Shown: piece by piece, positions 26,049 to 47,551 of the stretch | Layout: each line of letters opens with the position of its first letter | Numbering within the stretch: position 1 is the first letter of the stretch | Source: Martelella lutilitoris | Lineage (GTDB): Bacteria; Pseudomonadota; Alphaproteobacteria; Rhizobiales; Rhizobiaceae | Assembly (NCBI RefSeq): GCF_005924265.1 | Contig: NZ_VCLB01000002.1 | Span: 124,001 to 188,000 of the forward strand | Length of the DNA: 64,000 nt | Reading direction: 5' to 3' | Notes under the pieces: generated by a model | What the model saw: the letters and a program-made list of their open reading frames with translations, nothing else | What the model was told of the DNA's origin: nothing | The model's database searches: none | Made by a program: the position numbers and the translations under genes

Positions 26049-26076
26049 GTCTCGGCTTTCCTCATTCAGCGCTTTA

Positions 26077-26101
26077 GCGGTCGGCCATGGCGGCCGGCCG
26101 C
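26077..26101 (+). repeat. Intercistronic hairpin between LivK-like and LivH genes
   Basis: GCGGTCGGCC (26077-26086) pairs with GGCCGGCCGC (26092-26101) with one G-T pair and a 5-base loop. It lies 28 bases after the SBP stop and 22 bases before the permease start. No T-run follows. Confidence 0.65.
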
Positions 26102-26123
26102 CCAGACAGCGGAAAACACAGCA

Positions 26124-28683: not shown

Positions 28684-29395
28684 ACCATTCTTCCAGATCG
28701 ACAAGCTTGAGGCCGGCTACGGCGAAATCCGGGTTCTCTGGGGCATCGATCTTGCCGTCAATGCCGGCGAGATCGTCTGCCTGATCGGCTCCAACGGCGC
28801 GGGCAAGACGACGCTGCTGCGCACGATCTCCGGCCTGCTTCCGCCAACGGCGGGCAGCATCCTGATCGATGGCCAGGACCTGGCAGGCGCCGACACGCGC
28901 CGGATCCTGACGGGCGGCATTGCTCATGTGCCCGAAGGCCGGCGTCTGTTTCGCACCATGTCGGTAAAGGACAATCTGATGATGGGCGCCTATCTCAGGA
29001 AAAGGGACGCCTCGGTCGAGGAAGACCTCGAACGGGTCATGACCATGTTCCCGCGCCTTGCCGAACGGGCGCATCAGGATGCCTCGACGCTGTCGGGCGG
29101 CGAGCAGCAGATGTGCGCGATCGGCCGCGGGATCATGAGTCGTCCGAAACTGCTGATGATCGACGAACTCTCGCTCGGTCTCGCCCCGCGCGCCGTCGAA
29201 CTCCTGAGCGAATCCCTCATCGAAATCAACAAGACCGGCGTCGCCATCCTGCTTGTCGAGCAGGATGTGATGACCGCGCTCGACCTTGCCCATCGCGGCT
29301 ATGTGATCGATCGCGGCCGGATTTCCCTTGCAGCCACTTCAGAAGAACTCCGTCAGGAGCCCACCGTGCGCGAAGCCTATATCGGCGCGGCCTGA
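28676..29395 (+). CDS. livF: Branched-chain-type ABC transporter ATPase (LivF)
   Basis: A 239-residue ATPase with Walker A GSNGAGKTTLLR, the family element HVPEGRRLF, signature LSGGEQQMCAIGR, Walker B LLMIDELSLGLAP and H-loop region VEQD. ATG 28676 overlaps the end of livG by 8 bases and has GGGGAGA in front. An earlier in-frame start within livG is less likely. It completes the five-component importer; the ALDH gene starts 30 bases downstream. Confidence 0.93.
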   Translation: MSEPFFQIDKLEAGYGEIRVLWGIDLAVNAGEIVCLIGSNGAGKTTLLRTISGLLPPTAGSILIDGQDLAGADTRRILTGGIAHVPEGRRLFRTMSVKDNLMMGAYLRKRDASVEEDLERVMTMFPRLAERAHQDASTLSGGEQQMCAIGRGIMSRPKLLMIDELSLGLAPRAVELLSESLIEINKTGVAILLVEQDVMTALDLAHRGYVIDRGRISLAATSEELRQEPTVREAYIGAA

Positions 29396-29425
29396 CATTT
29401 AAAGAAAACACAGAAAGCAACTCCA

Positions 29426-30904: not shown

Positions 30905-31712
30905 ACCGTTGAGGGTCGCAGTCGCCGGGCTGGGGTCGATCGGCATGCGTGTGGCGGCGGCGCTTGATCAGGGGATCGAGGGTCTTGAGCTGAAAGCCGT
31001 CGCCGTCCGTGACGCGGCAACTGCAGGCGCGCGACTTGCGGGCCTGCGATCATCCCCCGTTATCCTGCCGCTTGCCGACCTGCCGGAAGCCGCCGATATC
31101 GTGGTCGAATGTCTGCCGCCATCGGCCTTTTCGGTGCTCGCGAACGCGATGCTGAACCACGGCGGCAAAACTTTCGTTGTCGCAAGCGTCGGGCAATTGC
31201 TGTGCTCCGATGGCTTTCTCGATGCCGCACGCGCAGCAGACCTCGCCATCCTTGCGCCATCCGGTGCGATTGCCGGACTTGACGGGTTGCGGGCCGCGCG
31301 CGAGATCGGACTGGAGGCTGTGGCGTTGAAAACCCGCAAACCGCCGCTTTCCTTCGGTGACGGCGTCAGGATCGGCGACAAGACCGTCGCGGCGTCCGAG
31401 ATCAAAGAGCCCACATGCCTCTTCTCCGGCAGTGCCCGGCAATCGATCGCGGCCTTCCCCAAAAACATCAATGTGGCGGCGACCGTCGCCCTTGCAGGGC
31501 TCGGTGCCGATCGGACGTCTGTCGAGATATGGGCCGATCCCGGCATCGCCATGAATACCCATGAAATCACCATCCGCTCCAAAGGCGGCACGATCACGGC
31601 CGTGTCGGAAAACCTGCCCGATGCGGACAATCCGAAGAGCAGCGCAATCACGGCCTACAGCATCATCGCTGCCCTGAGGCGCATGGAAAGTGTCGTTTCG
31701 GTCGGCTCGTGA
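30897..31712 (+). CDS. L-aspartate dehydrogenase-like protein (NadX family)
   Basis: A 271-residue NAD(P)-dependent enzyme with an N-terminal Rossmann fold (VAVAGLGSIGMRVA) and the C-terminal DUF108 domain. FPKNINVAATVALAG and the catalytic histidine H222 in MNTHEI match aspartate dehydrogenase, which interconverts aspartate and iminoaspartate/oxaloacetate plus ammonia. ATG 30897 overlaps the ALDH stop by 8 bases. In many bacteria the enzyme serves NAD synthesis with nadA/nadC, but those genes are absent here and the context is catabolic, so it may act on another amino acid. It precedes a probable imine-hydrolysing RidA-like protein. Confidence 0.88.
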   Translation: MAEPLRVAVAGLGSIGMRVAAALDQGIEGLELKAVAVRDAATAGARLAGLRSSPVILPLADLPEAADIVVECLPPSAFSVLANAMLNHGGKTFVVASVGQLLCSDGFLDAARAADLAILAPSGAIAGLDGLRAAREIGLEAVALKTRKPPLSFGDGVRIGDKTVAASEIKEPTCLFSGSARQSIAAFPKNINVAATVALAGLGADRTSVEIWADPGIAMNTHEITIRSKGGTITAVSENLPDADNPKSSAITAYSIIAALRRMESVVSVGS

Positions 31713-32714: not shown

Positions 32715-34430
32715 TTACTTGATAAGCGCCCTTGCTTCCTTCAAGGCCGCGATCACCCGGTTCTGGCCGCGCACGAGCTGGGTGCGGGCAAAGCCGAGCT
32801 TGGCCGGACCGAGCTTGTCGAGATCGGCTGCCGCCGAGAGGGCGGGCAGCGGCGGGATCGGCACGGCGGGGTCATGCCGGAAGCGCTGTTCACGAGTGAA
32901 ATTCAGCGGGATCAGGATGCGCGCGAGTTTCCGGATCACGACATTGGCGGTGGCCGGCGTCACCGAACCATCCTCGATGCCTGCGTAGAAGGCTTCCAGA
33001 GAAGCCTTCAGGGCCTCGGCGGCTTGCATTGCTGGCGCCAGATCGAAGCGATCGCCAGCCTTTTTCTGATAGTCCGCGATCGTAGCGATGAACTCCCCGG
33101 CCGTCTTGCGCCAGTCAAACGGCAGGATTTCCGCGTTGGCATTGCGCAGCACGGCCAGAAGATAGACCTTGATGTCGCGCAGAAGAATATCCTTGTCGGC
33201 GATTTCGAGCGTGTCATTCTCGGTATGCCAGGCGATATTGCCGCCGCAGCCGCCGACCGTGTAATAGCCCTTCTCCTCCCGCGCGCGCTCGGCCATGGTC
33301 GATGACAGCATCAGATAGCTCGAAAGCCCGATATTGTTGAAGGAATAGTCGCCGGCGCGGTGCGGACGTTCGCCCTCGGCCTTCTTGCCGGCCACTTCCT
33401 CGATCACCTCGGAGAGGAAATCCTCGGTCTCGCTCATCATGCACAGATTGATGAATTCGGTTGCCCAGCGGCAGCCGGGGCTGTCGCAATTGACAGAGGC
33501 GATGCAGTTCTCGTCCAGATCGAGCGCGAAATTGTCGGAAAACCAGGTGGAGCCGGCATAACGCCCGGTCGAGTGGCCCGGCCACCAGCACACGCGCACG
33601 GAACGCTTCAGCTTGTCGCGGTTTTCGTAAAGAACCCGCGCCATTTCCAGAAGCGAGGCATCGCCTGTGGCGTTGTCGCCGACGCCGACATCCCAGCTGT
33701 CGAGATGGCCGTGCAGCAGGATGTACTTTTCGGGCTCTTCCGCGCCCTCGATGAAGACTTCCGGCAGTTTGGAGGAAAACCAGCCCTCTTCCATTTCGGC
33801 AAACACAGTAACTTGCGCGCCCGCCTTCGCCAGCTCGATCAGCTGATCGCCGCCTTCACGGTTGACGGCGACGGCCGGAATGCGCGGCTTGCGGGGCAGG
33901 TCATCGAGATCCGGCGTGCCCCAGACGGTGGTGCAGATGCCCCAGTGAATGTCGACGCCGGGGTTGATGGCGATCACGCCGATTGCGCCAAGCTCGGTAA
34001 ACTGGGCGACCAGGCCCGGATTGGCGAAGCCCTCCGACAACACGATCTTGCCGGAAACGCGGGCGGCGAGATCGCTCGCATCCTCCACCGAGCGTTCGAA
34101 CATGGTCGAAATCGCCTTCGGCTGGTTGCTCGGCACATAGACGAGTTCGCCGGAAAGGCCATCGCGCGCATCGACGCAATAGGCCGGCGGCTTGGCGCGG
34201 AAGGTCTTGCCGTCGGCCTCCACGCGGGCCTTGCCCGGCAGGCTCAAGAAGAGCTCCGGCTGGTGCATTGTCACCGGCACGCCGTATTTTTCAAGACGCG
34301 CCTTCACCTCGTCCATGCCGCGGTTCACATCGTCCGGATGCTCGCGCTTGTAGGTGGAAAAGCTCTCGACCAGCGCCCAGGGGGCATCAAGCGAAACGGC
34401 GCCGAGAATGGCGGATTCGATATCGTTCAC
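32715..34430 (-). CDS. M28-family metallopeptidase-like protein with PA domain
   Basis: A 571-residue protein without signal peptide. Metal ligands of the M28 (aminopeptidase Y) fold appear as H242 and D244 in HGHLDSW, D252 in VGDNATG, D in NCDSPG and H in AWHTEND. A PA-like insertion lies around 95-210. The expected catalytic Glu-Glu motif (EExGLxGS) is replaced by PGHSTGRYAGS (284-294), a variant shared by a known M28 subgroup. GTG 34430 is used because GAGGAAA lies in front. It is transcribed from its own promoter region, which carries an operator-like palindrome also found next to the neighbouring IclR gene. It probably hydrolyses the imported peptide or amide. Confidence 0.85.
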   Translation of the reverse strand: MNDIESAILGAVSLDAPWALVESFSTYKREHPDDVNRGMDEVKARLEKYGVPVTMHQPELFLSLPGKARVEADGKTFRAKPPAYCVDARDGLSGELVYVPSNQPKAISTMFERSVEDASDLAARVSGKIVLSEGFANPGLVAQFTELGAIGVIAINPGVDIHWGICTTVWGTPDLDDLPRKPRIPAVAVNREGGDQLIELAKAGAQVTVFAEMEEGWFSSKLPEVFIEGAEEPEKYILLHGHLDSWDVGVGDNATGDASLLEMARVLYENRDKLKRSVRVCWWPGHSTGRYAGSTWFSDNFALDLDENCIASVNCDSPGCRWATEFINLCMMSETEDFLSEVIEEVAGKKAEGERPHRAGDYSFNNIGLSSYLMLSSTMAERAREEKGYYTVGGCGGNIAWHTENDTLEIADKDILLRDIKVYLLAVLRNANAEILPFDWRKTAGEFIATIADYQKKAGDRFDLAPAMQAAEALKASLEAFYAGIEDGSVTPATANVVIRKLARILIPLNFTREQRFRHDPAVPIPPLPALSAAADLDKLGPAKLGFARTQLVRGQNRVIAALKEARALIK

Positions 34431-34618: not shown

Positions 34619-35401
34619 TCAGCCCGCCTTCAGTACACCGCCCACGGCAAGCTTTTGCGAGATCCGGCGGCCGGCCTCAAGCGCTGCCTCCAGGTTTGCC
34701 GCGCGGCGTTCCTCGTCAAGGCGCATGACGGCCCCGGCGACCGAGATCGAGGCCGTCACTGACCCGTCTGCCCCCTTGATCGGTGCGGCCACGGAAAACG
34801 CACCCTCATCCAGATCATTGGTGACGATGTTGTAGCCGCTTGCGCGAATGCGCTCGAGCGTCTGGCGCAGCTTGTCGGGATCGGTGATGGTATAGGGCGT
34901 GAAGGTTTCAAGCGGTTTAGAAAGAACCTCTTCGATTACCCAAGGCTCCGCATAGGCGAGAAGCAGTTGCGAACTGCCGCCGGCATGAAGCGGCCCGAAC
35001 CGGCCGGCCTGGGCGAAGAGACGCATCGAATGCCGTCCGGGACGCGTGGCAAGCACATAGCTCTGGGTTCCGTCGCGGATCACCAGATTGACGTTTTCGG
35101 AGGTCACATCGCGCAGCCAGTCCATGACGGGGCGCGCGGCAAACAACAGGCCGCCATCCTTGCCAAGGCACTCGCCCAGAACGCCGATCCGGTGGCCAAG
35201 GGCATATTCCGAACGCTCCGCATCCCGCGAAACAAAGCCGCGCTCCTCAAGCGTGAAGAGGATCCGGAAGACCAGGGATTTCGTCATGCCGAGCGATTTG
35301 GCGAGTTCTGTCAGGCCCTGATTGGGCCGCGCCGCCAGCGCCTCCAGCACCACCATGGCTCGGTCGACGGCGGCAATCGTGTAATCCTTCCCCTCACTCA
35401 C
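34619..35401 (-). CDS. IclR-family transcriptional regulator of the peptide/hydantoin system
   Basis: A 260-residue regulator with an N-terminal winged helix (AVDRAMVVLEALAARPNQGL and TELAKSLGMTKSLVFRIL) and the C-terminal GAF-like IclR effector domain containing GPLHAGGSSQLLLAYA and VTNDLDEGAFSVAAPI. GTG 35401 starts MSEGKDYTIAAV; the ribosome site is modest. It is divergent from the large transport operon beginning at 35637 and upstream of the M28 gene; palindromes in both promoter regions suggest that it controls both. Its effector is unknown, likely an imported peptide-like or carboxylate molecule. Confidence 0.92.
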   Translation of the reverse strand: MSEGKDYTIAAVDRAMVVLEALAARPNQGLTELAKSLGMTKSLVFRILFTLEERGFVSRDAERSEYALGHRIGVLGECLGKDGGLLFAARPVMDWLRDVTSENVNLVIRDGTQSYVLATRPGRHSMRLFAQAGRFGPLHAGGSSQLLLAYAEPWVIEEVLSKPLETFTPYTITDPDKLRQTLERIRASGYNIVTNDLDEGAFSVAAPIKGADGSVTASISVAGAVMRLDEERRAANLEAALEAGRRISQKLAVGGVLKAG

Positions 35402-35636: not shown

Positions 35637-37283
35637 ATGAGTTATATCGCGCGGGCTTCCCTTGCCGCGTTGCTGGCCTCCACGGCGGCCTTGCCCGCCT
35701 TTGCCGGCGACGAGATTCGCGAAATCGTGCTTTTCTCCCGGCCGCAGGCCGGTCAGCAGGCCGAATTCCAGTCCGTCCAGCTCATTGCCCAGGAATGGCG
35801 AAAGCTTGGTCTCGACGTCAAGGTCGAGGTCATGCCCTGGGAGCAGATGTCGAATGTCGTCTGGTACGACCGCGGCGCCTGGGACGCCACAGCCTGGCAG
35901 ATGGTCGGGCGGCCGGAGCGCTCGGACCCGGATGAGCTTCTGTTCAACCTGTTCCACTCGACCACAGCCGAGTCTGGCTACAATTTCATCGGCTACAAGA
36001 ACCCCGAATATGACTCGATCGTTGAAGCGCAGCGCCGCGAGGTCGATCAGGACAAGCGCCGGGAGATGGTGTTCGAAGCTCAGGACATCCTCAGCGCCGA
36101 CCAGCCGAACATGATGCTGGTTCACCCCAAATCCACCTTTGCCTTCAACAAGGCGATCTTCGATCCGGAAACCGTCGTCAACCAGAGCGGCATCGGCATC
36201 AAGAACGCCTGGACCTTCATGGACATCACCCCGCTTGGCGAGGAAAAGGATATCGTCCTCAACTCCTCCGACAATGTGAAGTCGATCAACCCGCTCTATA
36301 TTTCGGGCGGCGTCGACAGCTGGGTGACCGAGCTTGTCTATGACCGGCTTCTGCGCGTCGGCCCTGACGGCTTGCCCCAGCCCTGGGCGGCGGAAAGCTA
36401 TGAATGGCTCGACGACGCCACGATCGCGCTGACCTTGCGCCCCGGCATGACGTGGCACGACGGCGAGCCGGTGACGGCGGAGGACGTGAAGTTCTCTTAT
36501 GAGGCGGCCGCCAGCGAAGAAGCGCCGATGTACCAGCCCTTTGCCAAGAACATCGACAGCGTCGACGTCGAGGGCGATGTCGTCACCTTCCACCTGAAGA
36601 CGCCGCTGGCCTCCTTCCTGACTTCGACGCTCGCCAAGATCAACATCATCCCCGAACATGTCTGGGGCCCGATCCTGGCGGATCTGAAGGACAAGCCGGA
36701 AAACGCCGAAAGCTATCAGGAAGAGACGCCGATCGGGTCCGGTCCCTACAAGTTCGCAAGCTGGACCAAGAACGAGGAAATCGTTCTGGAAGCCAATACC
36801 GATCACTTCCACGCGCCGAAGGCCGATCGCTGGATCCTGCGCATCGTGCCGAATGCGGAAGCAGCGCTTGGCATGCTGAAATCGGGCGAGCTCAACTTCA
36901 TCGGCGAATTTCCGGGCGACCCGCAGGTTCTCGTCGACGCGGCAACGGAAAATCCCGATCTCGAAGCGGTTTCCACTGTCGATATCGGTTTCCGCTATAT
37001 CGGCTTCAACAACCGCCGCGCCCCCTTTGACGACCCGGCCTTCCGCATGGCCTTGTCGCAGGCGGTCAATCGGCAGCTGATCGCCAAGGCCGCCTATCGT
37101 GGCTATGCTGTGCCCTCCAATTCCGTCGTCTCGCCGGCGCTTGCATTCTGGCACGACCCGGCGGTCGAGGATTTCGCCACCGGCACAGATCTCGCCAAGC
37201 AGACGCTGGAAGATGCCGGTTATACGCTTGAGGGCGGCAAGCTGCATTATCCGGGCGACATCAAGGAAACGCTCGGCAACTAG
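35637..37283 (+). CDS. Dipeptide-type SBP with circularly permuted domain order
   Basis: A 548-residue periplasmic SBP. After a Sec signal (residues 1-23, cleavage near AFAGDE), residues about 25-200 resemble the C-terminal lobe of DppA/OppA proteins: LIAQEWRKLGLDVKVEVMPW, GYNFIGYKNPEYD (114-126) and VDQDKRREMVFEAQDIL. Residues about 205-548 then resemble the canonical N-terminal part: TELVYDRLLRVGPDG (231-245), LTLRPGMTWHDGEPVTAEDV (265-284), IGSGPYKF, AFRMALSQAVNRQLI and a final LEDAGYTLEGGKLHYPGD, after which the chain stops. In normal members that element leads into the second lobe. The order is thus swapped. It is the first gene of the importer operon with an AGAGGAGA site in front. Confidence 0.9.
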   Translation: MSYIARASLAALLASTAALPAFAGDEIREIVLFSRPQAGQQAEFQSVQLIAQEWRKLGLDVKVEVMPWEQMSNVVWYDRGAWDATAWQMVGRPERSDPDELLFNLFHSTTAESGYNFIGYKNPEYDSIVEAQRREVDQDKRREMVFEAQDILSADQPNMMLVHPKSTFAFNKAIFDPETVVNQSGIGIKNAWTFMDITPLGEEKDIVLNSSDNVKSINPLYISGGVDSWVTELVYDRLLRVGPDGLPQPWAAESYEWLDDATIALTLRPGMTWHDGEPVTAEDVKFSYEAAASEEAPMYQPFAKNIDSVDVEGDVVTFHLKTPLASFLTSTLAKINIIPEHVWGPILADLKDKPENAESYQEETPIGSGPYKFASWTKNEEIVLEANTDHFHAPKADRWILRIVPNAEAALGMLKSGELNFIGEFPGDPQVLVDAATENPDLEAVSTVDIGFRYIGFNNRRAPFDDPAFRMALSQAVNRQLIAKAAYRGYAVPSNSVVSPALAFWHDPAVEDFATGTDLAKQTLEDAGYTLEGGKLHYPGDIKETLGN

Positions 37284-37298
37284 GCCGACGCAGCTCTT

Positions 37299-37335
37299 GA
37301 AAAGGCGGCGGGCGCTTGCCTGCCGCCCCCTTTTC
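37299..37335 (+). repeat. Intercistronic hairpin between SBP and DppB-like genes
   Basis: GAAAAGG (37299-37305) pairs with CCTTTTC (37329-37335) and, inside it, GGCGG (37307-37311) with CCGCC (37323-37327), separated by one C-C mismatch. It follows the SBP stop by 16 bases and ends 58 bases before the permease start. Confidence 0.65.
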
Positions 37336-37393
37336 GACCTTCATGCCTGATTGCGATTGACCTGAGAACGCAGCAGGAAGAGGACGGCGCTTC

Positions 37394-38371
37394 ATGTCAA
37401 CTTTAAAGCCGATCGGCAGCCGCGTGCTGCAGATGCTGCTGGTCCTGTGGACCGTGGTCACCATACTGTTCCTGATGTTCCGGCTGATGCCGGGCAACCC
37501 GATGGCGGCCTATATCGATCCGAATTTCACCCTGGAGCAGCAGGAAATCCTGATGGCCTCCTTTGGGCTCGACAAGCCCTTGTGGCAGCAATATCTGATC
37601 TATATCGGCAATCTTTTGCAGGGCAATCTCGGTGAGAGCTTCACCTATCGCAAGCCGGTGGCCGACATCATCTTTCCGCTTCTGCCGAACACGCTGATCC
37701 TCACCTTCACCTCGCTGATCGTTGCCTATGCCTTCGGCATTCTGGCAGGCGCCTACCTTGCCTGGAAGCGCGGCAACTGGGTCGAGCAGGCGGCCATTCC
37801 GGCGGTTCTCACCACTCGCGCCATGCCGGAATTCTGGCTCGGCATGGTGCTGCTTGCCGTCTTCTCCTTCTGGCTCGGCTGGTTTCCGGCAGGCGGCACG
37901 CGTACGGCCGGCGAAAGCTATGACGGCTATTTCGCGCTCTATACCTCGCGCGACTTCCTCGCTCATCTTGCGTTGCCGGCGCTGACGCTGGCCATCTACA
38001 GCCAGGGCCTGCCGCTGCTCCTGATGCGCTCCAACATGCTGGACGTGATGAAGGAGGATTTCGTCACCATGGCGCGCATCAAGGGGCTTTCGAGCTGGAC
38101 CGTCGTCGTGCGCCATGCCGCCCGCAATGCGCTGTTACCGATCATGACCTCGTTTGCGATCGCCGTCGGTTACCAGCTTCAGGGCAATGTCGTGGTCGAG
38201 ACCGTGTTTTCCTGGCCGGGACTTGGCCGCGAACTGGTGCGCGCGGTCTCGGCCTCCGACTATCCGCTGGCGCAGGGCGCCTTCCTGCTGATCGCGGTGG
38301 TGGTGATCCTGATGAACATGATCGCCGACCTGCTCTATGCCCTGCTTGACCCGAGGGTCGGCCATGCGTGA
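37394..38371 (+). CDS. Dipeptide-type ABC transporter permease (DppB-like)
   Basis: A 325-residue membrane protein of the DppB/OppB type. The first helix (VLQMLLVLWTVVTILFLMF) is followed by RLMPGNPMAAYI, and GLDKPLWQQYLIYI and FGILAGAYLAWKRG match the family. The coupling loop is DFVTMARIKGLSSWTV with HAARNALLP, and FSWPGLGREL is near the end. It overlaps the DppC-like gene by 8 bases. Its receptor partner is the permuted SBP; the two ATPases are encoded downstream in the same operon. Confidence 0.94.
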   Translation: MSTLKPIGSRVLQMLLVLWTVVTILFLMFRLMPGNPMAAYIDPNFTLEQQEILMASFGLDKPLWQQYLIYIGNLLQGNLGESFTYRKPVADIIFPLLPNTLILTFTSLIVAYAFGILAGAYLAWKRGNWVEQAAIPAVLTTRAMPEFWLGMVLLAVFSFWLGWFPAGGTRTAGESYDGYFALYTSRDFLAHLALPALTLAIYSQGLPLLLMRSNMLDVMKEDFVTMARIKGLSSWTVVVRHAARNALLPIMTSFAIAVGYQLQGNVVVETVFSWPGLGRELVRAVSASDYPLAQGAFLLIAVVVILMNMIADLLYALLDPRVGHA

Positions 38372-39260
38372 GATTGCCTCCTCCCTTTCCGGCGGGTTTG
38401 GCCGCTTCGCCCGCGCCCTGAAATTCCCGGTGCGCGATCCCTTCGCCATCGCCGGCGTCCTCATCTATGTTGTCTTCATCCTGGCGGCGATTTTCGCGCC
38501 CGATATCGCTACCCATGATCCGAACGAGATCCTCTATTCAGCGTCCTACGATCTCGCCGCCGATCTCCGGCCGGGACAGGACGGCTTCATTCTCGGTACC
38601 ACGAGCCTTGGCCGCGATATCTTCTCCCAGCTTGTCTATGGCAGCCGTTCGGCGCTGGTGATTGGGCTGACGGCCGCCTTCATGGTGGTGCTGATCGGCT
38701 CGCTCGTCGGCATTCTCGCCGGCTATTTCGGCGGCTGGGTCGACACGATCCTGATGCGGCTTGCCGATATCGCCTTCGGCATTCCCTTCCTGCCCTTCGT
38801 CATTGTCATCGCCGCCTTCCTCGAACCCTCGATCTGGAATGTGGTGATCGCCATGGCGCTGGTGCTCTGGCGCGATACCGCGCGCGTCATCCGCAGCCAG
38901 GTGCTGACGCTGAGAACGCGCGGCTATGTCGAGGCGGCACGGATTTCCGGCTCTTCCAGCCTCAAGATCATCGCCCGTCATGTTGCGCCCAATGTGTTGC
39001 CGCTCTCCTTCCTTTACGGATCGATCGCGATCGGCTGGGCGATCCTGACGGAAGCCTCCATCAGCTTTCTCGGCTTCGGCGATCCGAACTCGATCAGCTG
39101 GGGCTACATGCTGCAGGATGCCTTTGCCAGCCAGGCGCTCGCAAAGCAGGCCTATTACTGGTTCATCCCCCCGGGCCTCTGCATCATCCTGGTCGTCAGC
39201 GCGGGCTTCTTCGTCACGCGCGGCTATGAAAACCTCCTGTTTCCGAAGTTGAGCCGATGA
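38364..39260 (+). CDS. Dipeptide-type ABC transporter permease (DppC-like)
   Basis: A 298-residue permease. Its N-terminal helix is FAIAGVLIYVVFILAAIFAP, followed by the family segment GTTSLGRDIFSQLVYGSR. RIKG-like coupling features appear around VEAARISGSSSLKIIARHV, and SFLGFGDPNSISWGYM near the C terminus is typical. ATG 38364 lies in the last codons of the DppB-like gene; an earlier start is possible but unlikely. It overlaps the next ATPase gene by ATGA. Confidence 0.94.
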   Translation: MREIASSLSGGFGRFARALKFPVRDPFAIAGVLIYVVFILAAIFAPDIATHDPNEILYSASYDLAADLRPGQDGFILGTTSLGRDIFSQLVYGSRSALVIGLTAAFMVVLIGSLVGILAGYFGGWVDTILMRLADIAFGIPFLPFVIVIAAFLEPSIWNVVIAMALVLWRDTARVIRSQVLTLRTRGYVEAARISGSSSLKIIARHVAPNVLPLSFLYGSIAIGWAILTEASISFLGFGDPNSISWGYMLQDAFASQALAKQAYYWFIPPGLCIILVVSAGFFVTRGYENLLFPKLSR

Positions 39261-40273
39261 GCGAACCGCTTCTTTCCGTTGAGAACCTCACCGTATCCTA
39301 CAAGGTCCCCGGCGGCCTCGTTCATGCCGTGGACGGTGCAAGCTTCGAGGTGCCCGAGGGCTCGATCACCGGCCTTGTCGGGGAATCCGGCTGCGGCAAG
39401 ACCACCGCTGCGCGGGCGCTGACCCGGGTCATGGCCGACAACGCATCGATTTCGGGAGGCCGGATCATGTTTGCCGGGCAGGACCTCGCAAAATTGCCCG
39501 AACGGCGGATGAACGCGCTGCGCTGGCGCGATATCGCCTTCGTGCCGCAAAGCGCCATGAACTCGCTCGATCCGGTCTATACGGTCGAATACCAGCTTGC
39601 CGAAGTCTTGCGAAAGCGCGGCGGCATGGGACGCAGGGATGCCCGCCGCCGTTCGGAAGAGCTTTTCGACATGGTCGGCATCGATCCCGGTCGGCTGTCG
39701 GATTTTCCGCATCAGTTTTCAGGCGGCATGCGCCAGCGCGTCGCCATAGCCCTCGCTCTGGCGCTCGATCCGAAACTGGTGATCGCCGACGAGCCGGTGA
39801 CGGCGCTCGACGTCATCGTCCAGCGGCAAATCCTCGACCAGTTGAAGGAACTGCAGCAACGGCTCGGCCTGTCCGTCATTCTGGTCACCCACGACATCTC
39901 GGTCGTCGCCTATATCTGCGACCGCACCGTGGTGATGTATGCCGGCAAGGTGGCCGAGGCCGGGACCACCAGGGCGACGCTCACCCAGCCATCGCATCCC
40001 TATACGATGGGCCTCAAGAACGCCTTTCCCGACCTGACGGGGGCTGAGACCGGCGAACTGACGCCGATCGAGGGCGCGCCGCCGAGCCTCGCCGACCCGC
40101 CGCAGGGTTGTCGTTTCGCCGAGCGCTGTCCCTTCGCCCTCGACATCTGCGCGTCCGAACCGCCGCTCGTCGCGCTAGACGCGGTCCACCAGGTGGCATG
40201 CCACCGCGCCGGCGAGGCCGGGAGGCTTCGGGTCGAAGCAGCGAAGACCGAAACCTGGGGGGTGGGCCTGTGA
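39257..40273 (+). CDS. Dipeptide-type ABC transporter ATPase (DppD-like)
   Basis: A 338-residue ATPase with Walker A GESGCGKTTAARAL, the Q-loop region FVPQSAMNSLDPV, signature FSGGMRQRVAIALA, Walker B LVIADEPVTALD and H-loop VTHDI. The C-terminal extension contains the Opp/Dpp cysteine cluster element (PQGCRFAERCPFALDICASE), which binds an iron-sulfur cluster in some members. ATG 39257 overlaps the permease stop. With the DppF-like protein it powers this operon's importer. Confidence 0.94.
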   Translation: MSEPLLSVENLTVSYKVPGGLVHAVDGASFEVPEGSITGLVGESGCGKTTAARALTRVMADNASISGGRIMFAGQDLAKLPERRMNALRWRDIAFVPQSAMNSLDPVYTVEYQLAEVLRKRGGMGRRDARRRSEELFDMVGIDPGRLSDFPHQFSGGMRQRVAIALALALDPKLVIADEPVTALDVIVQRQILDQLKELQQRLGLSVILVTHDISVVAYICDRTVVMYAGKVAEAGTTRATLTQPSHPYTMGLKNAFPDLTGAETGELTPIEGAPPSLADPPQGCRFAERCPFALDICASEPPLVALDAVHQVACHRAGEAGRLRVEAAKTETWGVGL

Positions 40274-41274
40274 TGATGTCGGGCAAAAAGAGCGACGTCC
40301 TAGTCTCGGTCTTCGAGGCGAAGCTGCATTACAGGGTCGGCAGCGCGCTGTCGGTCATGCGGGGCCATTCCTCGGTCGTGAAGGCCGTCGACGGTGTCAG
40401 TTTCGATATTCGTCGGGGCGAAAGCATCGGGCTTCTGGGTGAAAGCGGCTGCGGTAAAAGCTCCATGGGCCGGCTTCTCCTCAAACTGGAGGACGTGACC
40501 GGCGGAAACATCAATTTCGAGGGCTATGACCTTTCCGGAATGGGCCGGCTGCGGCTGAAAAAATTCCGTGCGCAGGCGCAGCTGATCTTCCAGAACCCCT
40601 TCGATGCGGTCAATCCGCGCTTTTCCATCCGCGCGGCGCTCGCCGAGCCGCTGGAAAATGCCGGAATTCCCAGGAAGGACCGCGAGGCGAAGATCATTGC
40701 GGCACTCGAACTGGTAAAGCTGCCCGATCCCAAACAGTTTCTCGACCGCTATCCGCACCAGCTTTCCGGCGGGCAATTGCAGCGTGTGGTGATGGCGCGG
40801 GCGCTGATCCTGGAACCGGAATTCGTCGTCGCCGACGAACCGGTCTCCATGCTCGATGTCTCGGTGCGCGCCGGCGTGCTCAACGTCTTCCGCGACGTCC
40901 GCGACCGGCTGGGGCTGACGGCGATCTATATCAGCCACGATCTGGCGCTGGTGCGTTATGTTTGCGAGCGCACCATCGTCATGTATCTCGGCCGGATCAT
41001 GGAAGACGGGCCGACCGAGGATATCGTGCGCGAACCGCTGCACCCTTACACAAAGGCGCTCGTCTCCGCGGTTCCTGTGCCCCACCCGGACCAGAGCCAT
41101 GAACCGCTGCCGATCGGACGCGGCGCGCCGGATCCGCGCAATCCGCCGTCCGGTTGCGTTTTTCGCGACCGGTGCCCGAAGGCCTTTGCGCGCTGCGCTT
41201 CGGACGCCCCGAAGCCGCAGACTGTCGGCACACGCCTTGTCGCCTGCCACCTCTATGACGGGGAGGCGGGTTGA
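40273..41274 (+). CDS. Dipeptide-type ABC transporter ATPase (DppF-like)
   Basis: A 333-residue ATPase with Walker [15 protein letters not shown], signature LSGGQLQRVVMARA, Walker B FVVADEPVSMLD and the C-terminal GCVFRDRCPKAFARC element with clustered cysteines. The start is placed at ATG 40273, overlapping the DppD-like stop as TGATG; GTG 40270 or ATG 40276 are equally close alternatives. The GGGGGGTGGG run in front could serve as ribosome site. Its stop overlaps the next gene in the same TGATG manner. Confidence 0.93.
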   Translation: MMSGKKSDVLVSVFEAKLHYRVGSALSVMRGHSSVVKAVDGVSFDIRRGESIGLLGESGCGKSSMGRLLLKLEDVTGGNINFEGYDLSGMGRLRLKKFRAQAQLIFQNPFDAVNPRFSIRAALAEPLENAGIPRKDREAKIIAALELVKLPDPKQFLDRYPHQLSGGQLQRVVMARALILEPEFVVADEPVSMLDVSVRAGVLNVFRDVRDRLGLTAIYISHDLALVRYVCERTIVMYLGRIMEDGPTEDIVREPLHPYTKALVSAVPVPHPDQSHEPLPIGRGAPDPRNPPSGCVFRDRCPKAFARCASDAPKPQTVGTRLVACHLYDGEAG

Positions 41275-42281
41275 TGAAGACTGCCTGGTACGAAAAGACC
41301 GGCCCCGCGCGGGCCGTCCTGAAATTCGGCGATTTGACGGATCCCGTCCCCGGTCCCGGCGAGGTGCTGGTGGCCGTCCGGGCCTCCGGCATCAATCCGG
41401 CGGATGTCAAGCGCCGCGCGGGATGGCGCGGCGTGGGCATGGATCACCCCTTGATCATTCCCCACACCGATGGTGCGGGCGAGATTATCGCCGTCGGCCC
41501 GGGCGCCGATGCCGGCCGCATCGGCGAGCGCGTCTGGCTCTGGAATGCCCAGGGCGGCTACCGGGAAAGGGGCCGCGCCTATGGAACCGCTGCGGAGCTG
41601 ATTGCTATCGATGCGCGTCAGGCGGTGCGGCTCTCCGATCATCTGACCTTTGCCGAAGGCGCCTGCCTCGGCGTGCCCGCCATGACGGCCCACCGCGCCG
41701 TCTTTGCCGATGGCGGCGTTGACGGCAAGACCGTGCTTGTCAGTGGCGCAGCCGGCGCGGTCGGTCATTTCGCCGTGCAATTGGCGGCCCTCGATGGAGC
41801 GCGCGTGATCGGGACTGTCGGCAATGATGCGTCCGCCCGTCACGCGAAGGATGCGGGGGCGGAGATCACCGTAAACCGCAGGCAAGAGGATGTGGCGGCT
41901 CGCATTCTGGATCTGACGGAAGGCGCCGGCGTCGACCGGATCATCGAGGTCGATTTCGCCGCCAATGCCGCGCTCGCCGCCGCCGTGCTGAAGCCCAACG
42001 GAACGATCGCCGCCTATTCCTCAAGCAGCAATCCGGAGCCGGTTCTCTCCTACTACGCCTTTGCCTCCATCGGCGCCAATCTGCGCTTCATCCAGGGCTT
42101 TGCCATACCCGAGGACGCCCGCCGCTCCGGCGAAACCAGGATAGATGCGCTTGCCGGCTCCGGCAGGCTGCACGTCGCCATCGGTGCAACCTTTCCCCTT
42201 TCCGACATCGCCCTTGCCCATGAACGCGTCGAAGCGGGCGGGCTTGGCAATGTCGTGGTCTTTCCCGGCGATCCGGCCTGA
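41274..42281 (+). CDS. Zinc-free quinone oxidoreductase-like MDR protein
   Basis: A 335-residue member of the medium-chain dehydrogenase/reductase superfamily, quinone oxidoreductase (QOR) branch. The N-terminal catalytic domain contains PGPGEVLVAVRASGINPADVK and the Rossmann domain begins VLVSGAAGAVGHFAVQLA, the NADPH-binding AxxGxxG-type loop. No structural or catalytic zinc cysteines are visible. Such enzymes reduce quinones or alpha,beta-unsaturated carbonyls. GGGAGG lies before ATG 41274, which overlaps the ATPase stop. Its position between transporter and hydantoinase genes suggests a reductive step on the imported compound, but the substrate is not known. Confidence 0.88.
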   Translation: MKTAWYEKTGPARAVLKFGDLTDPVPGPGEVLVAVRASGINPADVKRRAGWRGVGMDHPLIIPHTDGAGEIIAVGPGADAGRIGERVWLWNAQGGYRERGRAYGTAAELIAIDARQAVRLSDHLTFAEGACLGVPAMTAHRAVFADGGVDGKTVLVSGAAGAVGHFAVQLAALDGARVIGTVGNDASARHAKDAGAEITVNRRQEDVAARILDLTEGAGVDRIIEVDFAANAALAAAVLKPNGTIAAYSSSSNPEPVLSYYAFASIGANLRFIQGFAIPEDARRSGETRIDALAGSGRLHVAIGATFPLSDIALAHERVEAGGLGNVVVFPGDPA

Positions 42282-42320: not shown

Positions 42321-44144
42321 ATGTCAGACACAGTGAACAAAAAAAGCGACGGCGTCCCGCCGCTCTGCGACCCGGTAACGCTCGAGATCATCCGCGGCGC
42401 GGTGGCTGCCGCGCAGGCAGAGATGGAAGCGCTGCTTGAGCGCACCGCGATTTCCGCCTTCATTCGCGAGAAGAAGGATTTCTATACCGCGCTGTTCGAT
42501 GCAGACGGCGTGATGGCTGTCGGTTCCATGGTTCCGATCTTCGGCGATATGACCACGCCCGTGCTGGAGAAGTTCCCGGCCGAAACCATGCAGCCCGGCG
42601 ATCTTTACTGGTATAATGACTGCTACGGCTCGCGCGGCGCGGTCTCCCATTCCAATGACCAGGTTCTGCTGGCGCCCGTCTTCAATGACGGCAGGCTTTG
42701 CGCTTTCGTGATGAGCTGGGCGCATTTCGCCGATATCGGCGGCATCCACCCGGGCTCGATCAGCCCGGATGCCACGGAGATCTTCCAGGAAGGCATCATC
42801 GTGCCGCCGACGAAGCTGATTTCGGCCGGCGTCACCAACGAGACCGCGCTTGAAATCTTCCACCGCAATTCGCGTTTCCCCGACCAGAGCATCGGCGATA
42901 TGCGGGCGCTGATGGCGAGCGTTGACCTCGGCGTGCGCCGCATCGGCGAGATCGTCGATCGTTTCGGCGCGGATGTGCTCGCCGACGCGCTCTCCCAGCT
43001 TCTCGTGCGCACCCGCAAGCTGGTGCGTGAGAAATTGGCCGAGACCTTCGACTATGGCACCTATTCCTTCACCGATGCGATCGACACCGACGGGCATGGC
43101 AACGGTCCGTTCAAGATCCGCTTTTCTCTGACGCGGGAAGAGGCCGAGGACGGCGACGACCGCTTCATCTTCGATGCCACGGCCACAGACGATCAAGCTC
43201 CCGGTCCGGTCAATTTCTTGATGAACCGGGGGGTGCCCGGCATGGCGCTTGGCCTGTTCTATCTCGGCGGCGACCCGGCGCAGGTCTGCAATGCCGGCGG
43301 CCCGAACGCGATTGACGAGGTGAGACTGCGCGAGGGATCGTTGCTGAAGCCGACATTTCCCGCACCGCTCGGCATGCGCGGTCTGACGACGATGCGTGTG
43401 CTCTCGGCAATCAACGGCCTCGTGAATGTCGCAGGCGGCAAGGCGCCCGCCGCCAATTCGGCTTACGTGATCACCATCATGCGCGGCAATTTCCGCGATG
43501 AGGACGACGGCCGGCTGAAGCGCTTCCTGCTCGCCGACGGCATCGGCGTCGGCTATGGCGCGCGGCCGAATGCCGACGGCATCGATGCGGTCTATTTCGT
43601 CGCCCAGGAGAATTATCCCGTCGAATTTCTCGAGGTTGGCTATCCGGTGCGGCTCAGGCGCTACGGGATCGTCGAGAACTCCGGCGGCGCGGGCAAATAT
43701 CGCGGCGGCTGCGGGATCGTCCGCGAATATGAGATCCTCGCCGAGGACATGATGCTGGCTGTCCGGATCGACAGCGTCAAGAACCCGCCCTGGGGCATTC
43801 ACGGCGGCATGGGCGGCGGCAGCGGCCGCGTCACCGTCAATCCCGGACTCGCCAACGAAAAGATATTGAAACCGCTTTCGGACGGCAACCGGCTGGTCAA
43901 GGGCGACATCCTGCGTATGGAAACGGGCGGCGGCGGCGGTTACGGCCATCCCTTCGACCGGGCGGCGGACAAGGTGCTGGCCGATGTGCTCGGCGGCTTT
44001 GTCAGCACTGAAGCGGCAGAACGACTCTACGGCGTCGTCATCCGTGACAGCATTGTCGACCGCGCCGCAACGGCGGCACTGCGCGAAAACCGCCCCGAGA
44101 CCAAAGCCTTCCATCGCCAGGAGTATGTCGATGTCCTCGCCTGA
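42321..44144 (+). CDS. hyuB: Hydantoinase B / oxoprolinase-type subunit (HyuB)
   Basis: A 607-residue protein of the HyuB family, the second subunit of ATP-dependent hydantoinases, 5-oxoprolinases and acetone carboxylases. Landmarks are CDPVTLEIIRGAV at the N terminus, YNDCYGSRGAVSHSNDQ, MSWAHFADIGGIHPGS, the second-half segment FDATATDDQAPGPVNF and GGGGGYGHPFDR near the C terminus. It acts in the cytoplasm with HyuA, whose gene overlaps its 3' end. This is a second, ATP-dependent cyclic-amide hydrolase, unrelated to the amidohydrolase-type enzyme at 3932-5299. The exact substrate (hydantoin, 5-oxoproline or N-methylhydantoin) cannot be told apart by sequence here. Confidence 0.92.
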   Translation: MSDTVNKKSDGVPPLCDPVTLEIIRGAVAAAQAEMEALLERTAISAFIREKKDFYTALFDADGVMAVGSMVPIFGDMTTPVLEKFPAETMQPGDLYWYNDCYGSRGAVSHSNDQVLLAPVFNDGRLCAFVMSWAHFADIGGIHPGSISPDATEIFQEGIIVPPTKLISAGVTNETALEIFHRNSRFPDQSIGDMRALMASVDLGVRRIGEIVDRFGADVLADALSQLLVRTRKLVREKLAETFDYGTYSFTDAIDTDGHGNGPFKIRFSLTREEAEDGDDRFIFDATATDDQAPGPVNFLMNRGVPGMALGLFYLGGDPAQVCNAGGPNAIDEVRLREGSLLKPTFPAPLGMRGLTTMRVLSAINGLVNVAGGKAPAANSAYVITIMRGNFRDEDDGRLKRFLLADGIGVGYGARPNADGIDAVYFVAQENYPVEFLEVGYPVRLRRYGIVENSGGAGKYRGGCGIVREYEILAEDMMLAVRIDSVKNPPWGIHGGMGGGSGRVTVNPGLANEKILKPLSDGNRLVKGDILRMETGGGGGYGHPFDRAADKVLADVLGGFVSTEAAERLYGVVIRDSIVDRAATAALRENRPETKAFHRQEYVDVLA

Positions 44145-46167
44145 AACCGCCCTTTCGATCGCCGTCGATATCGGCGGAACCTTCACCGATATCTCGCTTC
44201 TGGACCGGGCAAGCGGCAAGGTGTGGCGCGCCAAGACGCCGAGCATCCCGGCGGACCCCTCGGAAGCCTTTCTCAACGGCATCCGTCTCGCCCTTGGCGA
44301 TGCCGGCCTTGAGGCTTCGCGACTGTCGCAAGTGCTGCACGGAACGACCGTTGCCACCAACATGATCCTTGAGGACAAGGGCGCCAGAACCGCACTGATC
44401 ACGACGCGCGGCTTCCGCCATGTGCTGGAAATCGGCCGGCAGGATATTCCGCGCAAGGCCAACCTCTACAATTGGGTCAAACCGGAGCGCCCCGTTCCCG
44501 CTGCCCGCATCATCGAGATCGACGGGCGCATTGGGCCCGGCGGCGCGGTTCTCGAGGCGCTCGACGAGGCAAGCGTGCGCAAGGCGGCGGTCGCGATCCG
44601 CGCCATGGATGTGACTTCCGTCGGCGTCTGCCTGCTGCATGCCTTTGCCAATGCCGCCCATGAAGAACGCGTTGTCGCCATCCTCGCCGAAGAGCTGCCG
44701 GACCATGCGATCACCTGCTCCACGGATGTTCTGCCGGTCGTGCGCGAATTCGAGCGCTCGCTGACCACGGTGCTGAACGCCACGGTCATGCCGGGCGTGA
44801 CGTCCTATGTCGAAAGACTGGAACAGCGCCTTGCCGACGAGAAGGTCGATGCGCCGCTGCTGCTTATGCAATCGAACGGCGGGGTTGCCGGTGCTGCCGC
44901 CATTCGCAAGGCGCCTGCGCTTACGGCGCTTTCGGGACCGGCTGCCGGCGTGGTCGGGGCGCGGGCTGCGGCATCGGCCTGCGGCATCAAGGATATCATC
45001 ACCGTCGATATCGGCGGCACCAGCGCCGATATCTGCCTGATCAAGGATGGCGAGATCGGGCTCACCCAGCATGGGCGCATCGGTGAATGGCCGCTGCCGC
45101 TTCCCATGGTCGACATGGTGACGATCGGCGCGGGCGGCGGTTCGATCGCCAAGGTTGCCGATGGCACGCTGACGGTCGGCCCGCAAAGCGCCGGCGCCAT
45201 GCCCGGACCTGCCGCCTACGGAAATGGCGGCGGCGAAGCGACTGTGACCGATGCCCATGTCGCGCTCGGCCATCTGCCGGCAAAACTGCTTGGCGGGCGC
45301 ATGGCGCTCGATGTCGAGGCCGCTCTTGGCGTGATCGACACTGCCGTCGCCAAGCCCCTGAAGCTGGGACGAGAGGCGGCGGCACGCGGCATTCTCGCCA
45401 TTGTCGACAGCCACATGGTCGGCGCCGTGCGGGTGGTCTCCGTCGAACGCGGCCATGATCCGCGCGATTTCACCCTGGTGCCCTTCGGCGGCGCGGGGCC
45501 GCTGCATGGGTGCGCACTGGCCGAACTCCTGGGCATTCGCCAGGTTATGATCCCGGCCGCCCCCGGCGTGTTATGCGCCGACGGTCTTCTGGCCGCCGAC
45601 CTCAAGGCCGAGTTCAGCCGAACCATGCCAAAAGCAGGCACGATCGATGTGGAAAGCGCCGGGGCGATACTCGCCGGGCTCGCCGAACAGGCCGATCAAT
45701 GGTTCGACGAGGAAGGCGTGTCGCTTGAAGCGCGTGAAAAACAACCGGTCGCGCTGTTGCGCTATCACGGCCAGGGTGGAGAGCTCGCCGTCTCCTGGGC
45801 TGATGATGCCGCAGCGGTTGAAGCGCGTTTCGCCGAGGCCCATCAGGCGCTTTACGGCTTCACCCTTGACGCGGCGATCGAACTGGTGACGCTCAGGATC
45901 GAGGCGAAGGGCCGGGTCGATGCGCCCGAAATCGCCGCTCTGCCACCGCAGCACGGCGCGATCACGCCGTATGACACCGTTCCCTTGCATTTTGAAACCG
46001 GCACCCAAACCGTTCCCGTCATCGACCGGGCGACGCTTGGCGCGGGCGCGTCATTCGCCGGGCCGGCAATCCTCACCCAACTCGATACCACCACCGTCGT
46101 CAAACCCGGCTGGAGCGGTCGCGTCGATGCCTCGGGTGCCGTGATCCTGAACCGTGAGGAGGGCTGA
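44131..46167 (+). CDS. hyuA: Hydantoinase A / oxoprolinase-type subunit (HyuA)
   Basis: A 678-residue ATP-binding subunit with the sugar kinase/HSP70-like fold. The phosphate-binding loop VDIGGTFTDISLL lies close to the N terminus, HGTTVATNMILE follows, a second phosphate loop is VDIGGTSADICLI, and GAGGGSIAKV and FGGAGPLHGCALAELL are family hallmarks. ATG 44131 is chosen because AGGAG is 8 bases upstream; ATG 44125 is too close to that site. It overlaps HyuB by 14 bases. With HyuB it would use ATP to open a cyclic amide such as a hydantoin or 5-oxoproline. Confidence 0.92.
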   Translation: MSSPETALSIAVDIGGTFTDISLLDRASGKVWRAKTPSIPADPSEAFLNGIRLALGDAGLEASRLSQVLHGTTVATNMILEDKGARTALITTRGFRHVLEIGRQDIPRKANLYNWVKPERPVPAARIIEIDGRIGPGGAVLEALDEASVRKAAVAIRAMDVTSVGVCLLHAFANAAHEERVVAILAEELPDHAITCSTDVLPVVREFERSLTTVLNATVMPGVTSYVERLEQRLADEKVDAPLLLMQSNGGVAGAAAIRKAPALTALSGPAAGVVGARAAASACGIKDIITVDIGGTSADICLIKDGEIGLTQHGRIGEWPLPLPMVDMVTIGAGGGSIAKVADGTLTVGPQSAGAMPGPAAYGNGGGEATVTDAHVALGHLPAKLLGGRMALDVEAALGVIDTAVAKPLKLGREAAARGILAIVDSHMVGAVRVVSVERGHDPRDFTLVPFGGAGPLHGCALAELLGIRQVMIPAAPGVLCADGLLAADLKAEFSRTMPKAGTIDVESAGAILAGLAEQADQWFDEEGVSLEAREKQPVALLRYHGQGGELAVSWADDAAAVEARFAEAHQALYGFTLDAAIELVTLRIEAKGRVDAPEIAALPPQHGAITPYDTVPLHFETGTQTVPVIDRATLGAGASFAGPAILTQLDTTTVVKPGWSGRVDASGAVILNREEG

Positions 46168-46171
46168 AGCC

Positions 46172-47551
46172 ATGACCGCAACCGGACTTGAAACCGCCTT
46201 CGCCCATATCGATGCCCATGCGGATGATTTCATCGCACGGGTGATGGAGTATGTCAGCCATCCCTCGATCAGCGCCCAGAACAAGGGGATCCGCGAGGTC
46301 GCCGGCATTCTGGTCGACAAGCTGACAGCCATGGGGTTTGAGGCGGAGACCATCGCGACGAAAAACCATCCGATGGTGCTTGGCCGGTGGGAGAAGAAGC
46401 CGGGCAAACCGACCGTGCTGCTCTACGGCCATTACGATGTACAGCCGCCGGAACCGCTTTCGGAATGGAAGAGCCCGCCCTTTGAACCGACCATCCGCGA
46501 CGGCCGCATCTATGCCCGCGGCATTGGCGACAACAAGGGCCAGCACTTCGCCCAGTTGATGGCGATCGAAACCCTTCTGGAAACAGCGGGCGAACTGCCC
46601 TGCAACGTGCTCTTCCTGCTGGAGGGCGAGGAGGAGATCGGCTCGCCGCATATCGCCGAGTTCGTCGCCGAGCACGCCGACGAGCTAAAGGCCGATCTGG
46701 TGATCACCTCCGACGGCCCGCTGCATGAGAGCGGCCGACCGATCATTACCTTCGGCGTGCGCGGCGTTGCTTCCTTCGAGCTTCATTGCCGCACGGCAAG
46801 GCGTGATGCCCATTCCGGCAATTTCGGCGGCGTCATGCCGAACGCGATCTGGAAGCTCGTGCACCTCTTGTCAACGATGAAGAACGAGGCCGGCGAAATC
46901 ACGATTGAAGGCCTGAACGAACCCGTCATTCCGCCGACCAATATGGAACGCGAGGCCGTCAGCAAACTGCCGCTCGACCTTGAGGCGATCAAGGCCGATC
47001 TCGGTATCGAAGAACTGGACGCGCCCGCCGACCGCGCCTATTACGACCGGCTGATGTTCCACCCGACGCTGACGATCAACGGTTTTCACGGCGGCTATGG
47101 CGGCGAAGGGACCAAAACGGTGCTGCCATGCGAGGCGATCGCGAAATGCGATATCCGTCTCGTCGAACCGCTGACGCCGGATTACGTCTTCGAGAAGGTG
47201 AAGGCGCATGTGGAGCGCCACGCGCCCGATGTCGAATTCATCCCGAGAAACGGCATGCTGCCGTCGAAGACGCCGATGGACAACCCGTTTGCCGCAACCA
47301 TCGAACAGGCGATCATCGATGCACGCGGTGAGGCGCCTCTGCTCTACCCGACCGTCGGCGGAAGCCTGCCCGATTACGTCTTCACCAAGATCCTGAAGAC
47401 GCCGGCCTTCGTCGTGCCCTATGCCAATGCCGACGAGGCGAACCACGCGCCGAACGAGAATCTGAAGATCGACCTTTTCATCAAGGGCATCAGGACCGGC
47501 GTGGCGCTTCTGACCCGGATCGGCGGCATGGACGATGCCCCGGTTTCATGA
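46172..47551 (+). CDS. M20-family metallopeptidase (dipeptidase/carbamoylase-like)
   Basis: A 459-residue zinc hydrolase of the M20 family. The metal ligands and base are visible: H87 and D89 in GHYDVQP, the bridging D120 in RGIGDNKG, the catalytic glutamates at 153-155 in EGEEEIGS, the TSDG aspartate and a late histidine in EANHAPNE. The lid domain starts after VRGVASFELHCRTARRDAHS. Members hydrolyse dipeptides, N-acyl or N-carbamoyl amino acids. GAGGAGG precedes ATG 46172. It is the last gene of the importer/HyuBA operon, a good position for hydrolysing the ring-opened product. Confidence 0.9.
   Translation: MTATGLETAFAHIDAHADDFIARVMEYVSHPSISAQNKGIREVAGILVDKLTAMGFEAETIATKNHPMVLGRWEKKPGKPTVLLYGHYDVQPPEPLSEWKSPPFEPTIRDGRIYARGIGDNKGQHFAQLMAIETLLETAGELPCNVLFLLEGEEEIGSPHIAEFVAEHADELKADLVITSDGPLHESGRPIITFGVRGVASFELHCRTARRDAHSGNFGGVMPNAIWKLVHLLSTMKNEAGEITIEGLNEPVIPPTNMEREAVSKLPLDLEAIKADLGIEELDAPADRAYYDRLMFHPTLTINGFHGGYGGEGTKTVLPCEAIAKCDIRLVEPLTPDYVFEKVKAHVERHAPDVEFIPRNGMLPSKTPMDNPFAATIEQAIIDARGEAPLLYPTVGGSLPDYVFTKILKTPAFVVPYANADEANHAPNENLKIDLFIKGIRTGVALLTRIGGMDDAPVS

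Follow-up and report, generated by a model that had tools for sequence, protein, structure and literature searches.

The window analysed here, a stretch of 64,000 nucleotides from Martelella lutilitoris (contig NZ_VCLB01000002.1, positions 124,001 to 188,000), holds a gene for a substrate-binding protein (SBP) whose parts appear to stand in the wrong order, and the question it raises is whether a binding protein of the OppA/DppA type can exist, and work, with a naturally circularly permuted chain. The gene, P0001, lies at 35637-37283 on the + strand and is an intact frame of 548 codons (548 aa) with an ATG start. SBP_bac_5 was the only Pfam family matched by its product at E values up to 0.001, and a chance match is excluded because the whole-protein E value was 5.8e-73 (246.6 bits against the Pfam cut-off of 32.4). 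This match fell in two stretches, the better of which placed residues 247-535 on positions 2-284 of the 368 in the profile; when the genome was searched with the profile, positions 290-366 (window 35730-35969) lay upstream of positions 2-287 (window 36375-37250). The canonical order of the SBP_bac_5 blocks is absent from the protein as encoded and present only after rotation. Matches to solved structures were split likewise: by phmmer, residues 56-360 and 377-483 of PDB chain 5u4o matched residues 216-530 and 45-155 of P0001, respectively, and in a PDB comparison AppA (1xoc) matched with 23-346 on residues 205-531 and 376-495 on residues 46-170.

The chain can be followed from its start along the + strand. 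A putative Sec-type signal peptide, recognized by eye, occupies residues 1-23 (35637..35705), ends in AFA and sits directly 5' of the permuted start; signal-like leaders also precede the C block in the 15 rows listed from the order-level scan, among which L047 is without an ATG. Residues 25-196 (35709..36224; Pfam positions 290-366, 5u4o 377-483) come next and make up what in ordinary SBPs is the C-terminal block, comprising the second part of domain III and the old C-terminal strands. The old C-terminus is linked to the old N-terminus via about eight residues, ITPLGEEK (residues 197-204; 36225..36248), a junction placed by the alignments and by a best rotation just before the N block. The block that is N-terminal in ordinary SBPs follows as residues 205-530 (36249..37226), carrying domains I and II and, up to the AGY motif, the initial part of domain III. 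The remainder, residues 531-548 with the stop (37227..37283), is a new C-terminal tail; alignment equates it with the loop that, in ordinary SBPs, leads from the AGY helix to the following strand, and it was in this loop that the chain was opened. The loop now supplies the C-terminus ('..EDAGYTLEGGKLHYPGDIKETLGN'), and the strand after it the N-terminus ('EIREIVLFSRPQ..').

An earlier note on this DNA, made from the letters alone, had claimed a swapped order of motifs, and the motifs do stand as claimed: LGLDVKVEV (57-65), GYNFIGYKNPEYD (114-126) and DQDKRREMVFEAQDIL (137-152) in the first block, then VYDRLLRVGPDG (234-245), WHDGEPVTAEDV (273-284), GSGPY (367-371) and LEDAGY (524-529) in the second, the note having given 52-151 for the first three. 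Its summary, that the C-lobe precedes the N-lobe, is right about the order of the blocks but only approximate, because the cut falls inside the C-lobe (domain III) and the rotation is not a swap of whole lobes. We place the cut there because residue 531 corresponds to AppA 346 of 520 and because of the domain layout that PMC7312458 gives for EppA, a solved Cluster C protein (domain I 27-256, IIa 257-302, III 303-530, IIb 531-563); by that layout EppA has no terminus in domain III. By analogy, the first part of domain III (approximately residues 440-530) would now be at the new C-terminus of P0001.

The permutation was put to a rotation test, scored with a 500-position profile built from 49 relatives of ordinary order. 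Mature P0001 scored 268.0 bits as encoded (positions 18-335) and 365.7 bits (18-481) when rotated at offset 168, a gain of 98 bits; the N block starts at offset 180. As the earlier note had anticipated, the rotated protein aligns end to end with its ordinary relatives, best at the block junction, and is complete, with no block missing or doubled. All 38 non-redundant permuted proteins reached their top score at the equivalent rotation, 2-35 residues ahead of the N block, with gains of 46-115 bits; none of eight randomly chosen ordinary proteins, all eight also members of the profile, gained more than 0.4 bit from any rotation. The genome itself provided further controls. A family search returned 19 SBP_bac_5 matches corresponding to 18 genes, 17 of them collinear in one stretch that reaches profile position 340 or more, beyond the cut, leaving P0001 as the only split and reversed gene of the 18. 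Block profiles confirmed the ordinary order in 13 of the 17; the C block was below threshold in the other four. The SBP gene P0002 (window 8960-10558), proposed as an internal control, is indeed ordinary, matching profile positions 1-357 in one collinear stretch. Downstream of it, at 12536-13936, is a short SBP_bac_5-like ORF (about 453 aa from its ATG) that lacks an evident signal peptide; its product may be a binding protein that is cytoplasmic or has degenerated. At the level of sequence, P0001 is an SBP_bac_5 (OppA/DppA-type) protein in circularly permuted order.

Orthologues were predicted to share the swapped order, and they do: it is found in alphaproteobacterial proteins 65-99% identical to P0001 and encoded in the same operon. 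Within the genus, 3 of 13 genomes carry the orthologue (own genome included; the other two are 99 and 95% identical). A search of genome contigs returned eight loci, of which seven were nearly full-length and permuted (65-99% identical; Martelella radicis, two alphaproteobacterial MAGs, Rhodophyticola, Boseongicola, and two uncultured Roseicyclus assemblies) and the eighth (L035) was an ordinary SBP. At the level of the order, 20 of 397 genomes matched at E <= 1e-60, 16 with a permuted gene (own included) and four with an ordinary one; loci L053-L056, considered as permuted members, were rejected as ordinary, the N block alone having matched. At the level of the class, the order test found 13 permuted genes (own included) among the 14 of 385 genomes that matched at E <= 1e-75, the fourteenth match (G552) being cut by a contig end, and at the level of the phylum the own genome was the sole match among 398 at the strict cut-off of E <= 1e-70. 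Because the E cut-offs were strict, these counts at the three levels are lower bounds.

The permuted order also extends to relatives only 24-34% identical, among them haloarchaeal proteins encoded on complete plasmids, and to other subfamilies. In the plasmid search, 69 records matched with at least 80% of the query covered in one place; 11 of the best 30 of these were examined, yielding ten permuted genes and one ordinary gene (Cytobacillus). The latter, L066, was discarded as a member since two pieces had been joined into one plasmid match and the gene itself is in ordinary order. Six of the ten permuted genes are archaeal (Natrononativus, Halalkalicoccus, Haladaptatus twice, Halomarina, and Haloprofundus; 28-34% identical). 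In further plasmid searches, 10 of the 50 matches listed were examined; six were permuted (Salipiger L138, Neorhizobium L140, and haloarchaeal L139, L141, L142, and L143) and four ordinary (L137, L144, L145, and L146). When the Pfam profile was run on ten plasmid records, nine of which carry a known permuted gene, the split match recurred in all nine, and a Nitratireductor plasmid record showed a second gene with a split SBP_bac_5 match. Two scans of viral contigs confirmed no relative of the permuted group or of P0002. A conserved arginine, R95 of P0001 (within GRPERSDPD), occurs in 27 of 37 permuted rows and in none of 34 ordinary rows; we speculate that it may mark a ligand preference.

Several of these loci merit separate description. 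A congener (G010) carries a second permuted SBP (L036, 2700-4400) that is 26% identical to P0001. The permuted SBPs of L138 (2339-4078) and L140 (2330-4084) adjoin genes for LLM/nitrilotriacetate monooxygenases and could possibly serve in aminopolycarboxylate uptake. Because of these neighbours the EDTA-binding protein EppA was considered as a permuted protein; the domain layout published for it (PMC7312458) is ordinary. In Natronorubrum bangense, the stretch L139 (1-4965) contains a pair of SBP genes with a PAP2-family phosphatase gene behind each, and no transporter gene. One of the SBPs is permuted; the second is truncated by the edge of the stretch, and its N block closes the frame, as would be expected of a permuted gene.

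Because the swap is common to varied bacterial and archaeal relatives, it reflects a genuine rearrangement, not an error of sequencing. Selection on the gene was assessed against the congeneric loci L010 and L028: dN was 0.023 and 0.0064, dS was 0.41 and 0.23, and dN/dS was 0.057 and 0.028, respectively. By block, dN/dS was 0.057 and 0.054 for the C block and 0.049 and 0.014 for the N block, and a window of 41 codons at the junction held three (L010) and zero (L028) amino acid differences. Each block is under purifying selection. A pseudogene is ruled out by the intact frame of 548 codons and by dN/dS far below 1, and the recurrence of the order in independent assemblies, and on complete plasmids, from several genera excludes the misassembly that the earlier note had wished to guard against, so that an assembly error or a decaying gene in this one genome has virtually no chance of being the explanation.

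An AlphaFold model using eight close orthologues reached a pLDDT of 41 and a pTM of 0.30; a second model, to which block fragments of five ordinary SBPs were added, was still poor (pLDDT 58.8, pTM 0.51), with its highest confidence over approximately residues 231-400 and, at low confidence, a beta hairpin at residues 530-537. A Foldseek search with the second model returned Cluster C proteins first (best E 4e-17), with an rmsd above 11 Å in 46 of the best 50 rows; the best local fit, to a structure of Listeria CtaP, was 3.3 Å over 227 columns. Because both models and the global rmsd are poor, the two-lobe fold of P0001 is one that we infer only. In the PDB, no chain in permuted order appeared among the matches listed (the best 60 of 101, 60 of 88, and 60 of 116).

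The position of the gene speaks to its role. P0001 heads a complete importer set of the DppBCDF type on the + strand, consisting of two permeases (DppB-type, 37394..38371, Pfam BPD_transp_1; DppC-type, 38337..39260, BPD_transp_1 and OppC_N) and two ATPases (DppD-type, 39257..40273, and DppF-type, 40270..41274, each with ABC_tran and oligo_HPY). Between the SBP and the first permease, at 37284..37353 (+), is a GC-rich RNA hairpin (MFE -28.5 kcal/mol, z -2.86); such hairpins often allow excess binding protein to be made. The set continues, still on the + strand, with a protein of the zinc-type quinone reductase/alcohol dehydrogenase family (41271..42281, Pfam), a hydantoinase B/oxoprolinase-type subunit (42321..44144), a hydantoinase A/oxoprolinase-type subunit (43984..46167, its true start probably later than the ORF start), and an M20-family peptidase/amidohydrolase (46154..47551) with a dipeptidase model as its best NCBIfam match, under the cut-off. 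The B- and A-type subunits best matched the beta and alpha subunits of caprolactamase, respectively; these NCBIfam matches of the pair were also under the cut-off (237.6 and 484.1 bits against 1000). Upstream and divergent, on the - strand, are an IclR-family regulator (34619..35401, Pfam) and an M28-family peptidase (32715..34430, Pfam M28) without a signal peptide evident by eye. Farther upstream, at 24753-31712, the window carries genes for the binding protein and permeases of a urea/branched-chain-type importer near aldehyde and aspartate dehydrogenase genes, which looks like another catabolic cluster for amino compounds.

Ten loci longer than 10 kb had an SBP of 54% identity or more; all 10 carry M28 and the full BCDF set, nine carry IclR, and HyuB was found in seven; L058, where a hydantoinase B is annotated at the cut end, makes an eighth HyuB locus of the 10. 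Two longer stretches from congeners kept the whole operon set. An annotated M28 peptidase is adjacent to archaeal permuted genes, or one small gene away, in four of 10 cases (L064, L065, L067, and L142); the window M28 had no match to those archaeal peptidases at 1e-10. Other permuted genes have as neighbours, depending on the locus, a creatininase with an M20 hydrolase, D-aminoacylases with a dipeptide epimerase, or an Asp/Glu racemase. In the operon on the Halomarina plasmid, a transposase gene (L065, 9541-10818) separates the second permease gene from the first ATPase gene. Judging by these neighbours, P0001 likely serves a Dpp-type importer of peptide-like or cyclic-amide compounds as its binding protein; that its ligand is a peptide-like, N-acylated, or cyclic-amide compound (of the lactam, hydantoin, or oxoproline type) we give about an even chance. 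The distant permuted genes L139, L141, and L143, which adjoin PAP2 phosphatases in 6.6 kb stretches containing no transporter gene, would be in keeping with a sensor or partner protein instead of the importer's binding protein, but in the window and at the orthologue loci alike the gene comes first in a Dpp-type set comprising two permeases and two ATPases, and such a role for P0001 is very improbable.

Whether the permuted proteins descend from one rotated parent, and from one event, was addressed with trees, all of which are quick trees of divergent sequences. The N-block tree and the C-block tree recovered the same pure clade of 34 permuted members out of 37, without L036, L138, and L140. 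Because both blocks recover this clade, rotation of one parent is favoured, although not proven, over the fusion of unrelated halves. A recombination of C and N blocks from two different SBP genes, with no single parent rotated, could draw on the fact that trees of divergent blocks cannot prove one parent, and on the different ordinary proteins nearest to the clade in each: a broad set in the N-block tree, and Cytobacillus L066, Meiothermus L144, and Paracoccaceae L145 in the C-block tree. It is nonetheless unlikely given the shared clade, a rotated chain with neither block absent or duplicated, and the position of L066 as sister to the 37 permuted rows in one tree of the rotated alignment (support 94); in the full tree the group of L066, L144, and L145 also adjoins the permuted rows, weakly. 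These three resemble the permuted clade as its nearest ordinary-order proteins in the C-block tree; they differ in their ordinary block order, and L066 ends in what looks by eye like a membrane-anchor tail.

Rotation of a single parent, as favoured here, may have occurred once or more than once. In the full tree (71 rows, the 37 permuted ones rotated before alignment) one branch separates 36 of the 37 permuted rows with weak support (30), a branch with 34 of them has support of 89, and L036 falls among ordinary proteins (89), which suggests that it could have been permuted independently, in the same loop. In a reduced tree of 49 rows (27 permuted and 22 ordinary), 24 permuted rows form one starred clade (97); L036 and the pair L138/L140 are outside, the pair joining the ordinary L145 (82). 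Given the starred branches, the label must change at least twice in the reduced tree and in each of the two block trees. These placements, together with the very long branch of L138/L140 and the position of this pair outside the main clade in the reduced and block trees, could be explained by a hot spot at which the main clade, L036, and the L138/L140 pair were permuted separately. Against this stand the long branches and the quick trees themselves, the full tree, where starred branches force just one label change, and the single cut site common to the permuted proteins. Moreover, the best tree of the reduced set that keeps the 27 permuted rows together is 8.5 log units worse and is not rejected by the AU test (p=0.309), a value with which one origin is compatible without being shown by it. 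Several separate permutations are, in our judgement, a serious possibility that nevertheless falls short of even. The broader reading, to which we give slightly better than an even chance, is that the permuted proteins form an old, unrecognised class spread across Alphaproteobacteria and haloarchaea, which probably moved between domains of life and possibly recurred at the same loop in domain III. Such a class could be called 'Cluster Cc', after the proposed Cluster Bc described below.

The earlier note knew of no circular permutation of this fold. A case from another class, Cluster B, has been published: TpMglB-2 (Tp0684) of Treponema pallidum, a bilobed ABC binding protein, was described in 2016 as naturally circularly permuted (PMC4990184). 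According to that report, the protein belongs to the Type I/Cluster B sugar-binding family, its N-lobe is permuted, the permuted segment is 13% identical to its supposed counterpart, the permutation is common to a clade and ligand binding is retained; its authors proposed the name 'Cluster Bc' and suggested that tethering might favour permutation. P0001 resembles TpMglB-2 as a natural permutation of a binding protein, known here from the sequence and with a bilobed fold that is presumed, and differs in belonging to SBP_bac_5, in having two blocks that are both clearly homologous to those of ordinary proteins, and in having its relatives in Alphaproteobacteria and haloarchaea. Tethering alone is no explanation here, because many of the alphaproteobacterial leaders look by eye Sec- or Tat-like and cleaved, and several haloarchaeal ones look lipobox-like. 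For the OppA/DppA/SBP_bac_5 class, no natural permutation appeared among the full-text literature matches listed, a coverage mostly without subscription papers. With OppA, DppA, AppA, and NikA (Cluster C), P0001 shares the Pfam family, homology in both blocks and the DppBCDF operon type; unlike them it is rotated, with its N-terminus inside domain III and the old termini fused.

Taken together, P0001 is very probably a Cluster C (SBP_bac_5) substrate-binding protein that works in a circularly permuted form of natural origin. The proposed course of events is the following: most likely, an SBP gene was duplicated in tandem and the copies fused in frame, which would give the block order N-C-N-C. 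Loss of the leading N block and the trailing C block would then have left C-N, and a signal peptide would have been captured at the new start. The resulting chain would adopt the usual two-lobed flytrap fold, its N-terminus placed in the lobe that has neither terminus in ordinary SBPs. Once the signal peptide is cleaved, P0001 would bind its ligand between the lobes, close, and dock on the two permeases; inside the cell, the hydantoinase/caprolactamase-like pair and the M28 and M20 hydrolases would cleave the imported ligand.

Bacteria have very many substrate-binding proteins, and biosensors commonly use them as scaffolds. Because the SBP_bac_5 profile still matches, annotation passes over the permutation; the split match itself (profile positions of approximately 288-366 upstream of 1-287) offers a simple fingerprint by which further members may be found. 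The domain-III loop is a ready cut site for engineered permuted sensors of the peptide/nickel class, and a conserved natural rearrangement in this class amounts to a natural experiment on chain topology, folding order, tether position, and transporter docking. If 'Cluster Cc' is real, the importer would read only the closed surface of its binding protein and not the topology of the chain, and the haloarchaeal members with a lipobox-like leader would carry their membrane tether on the opposite lobe.
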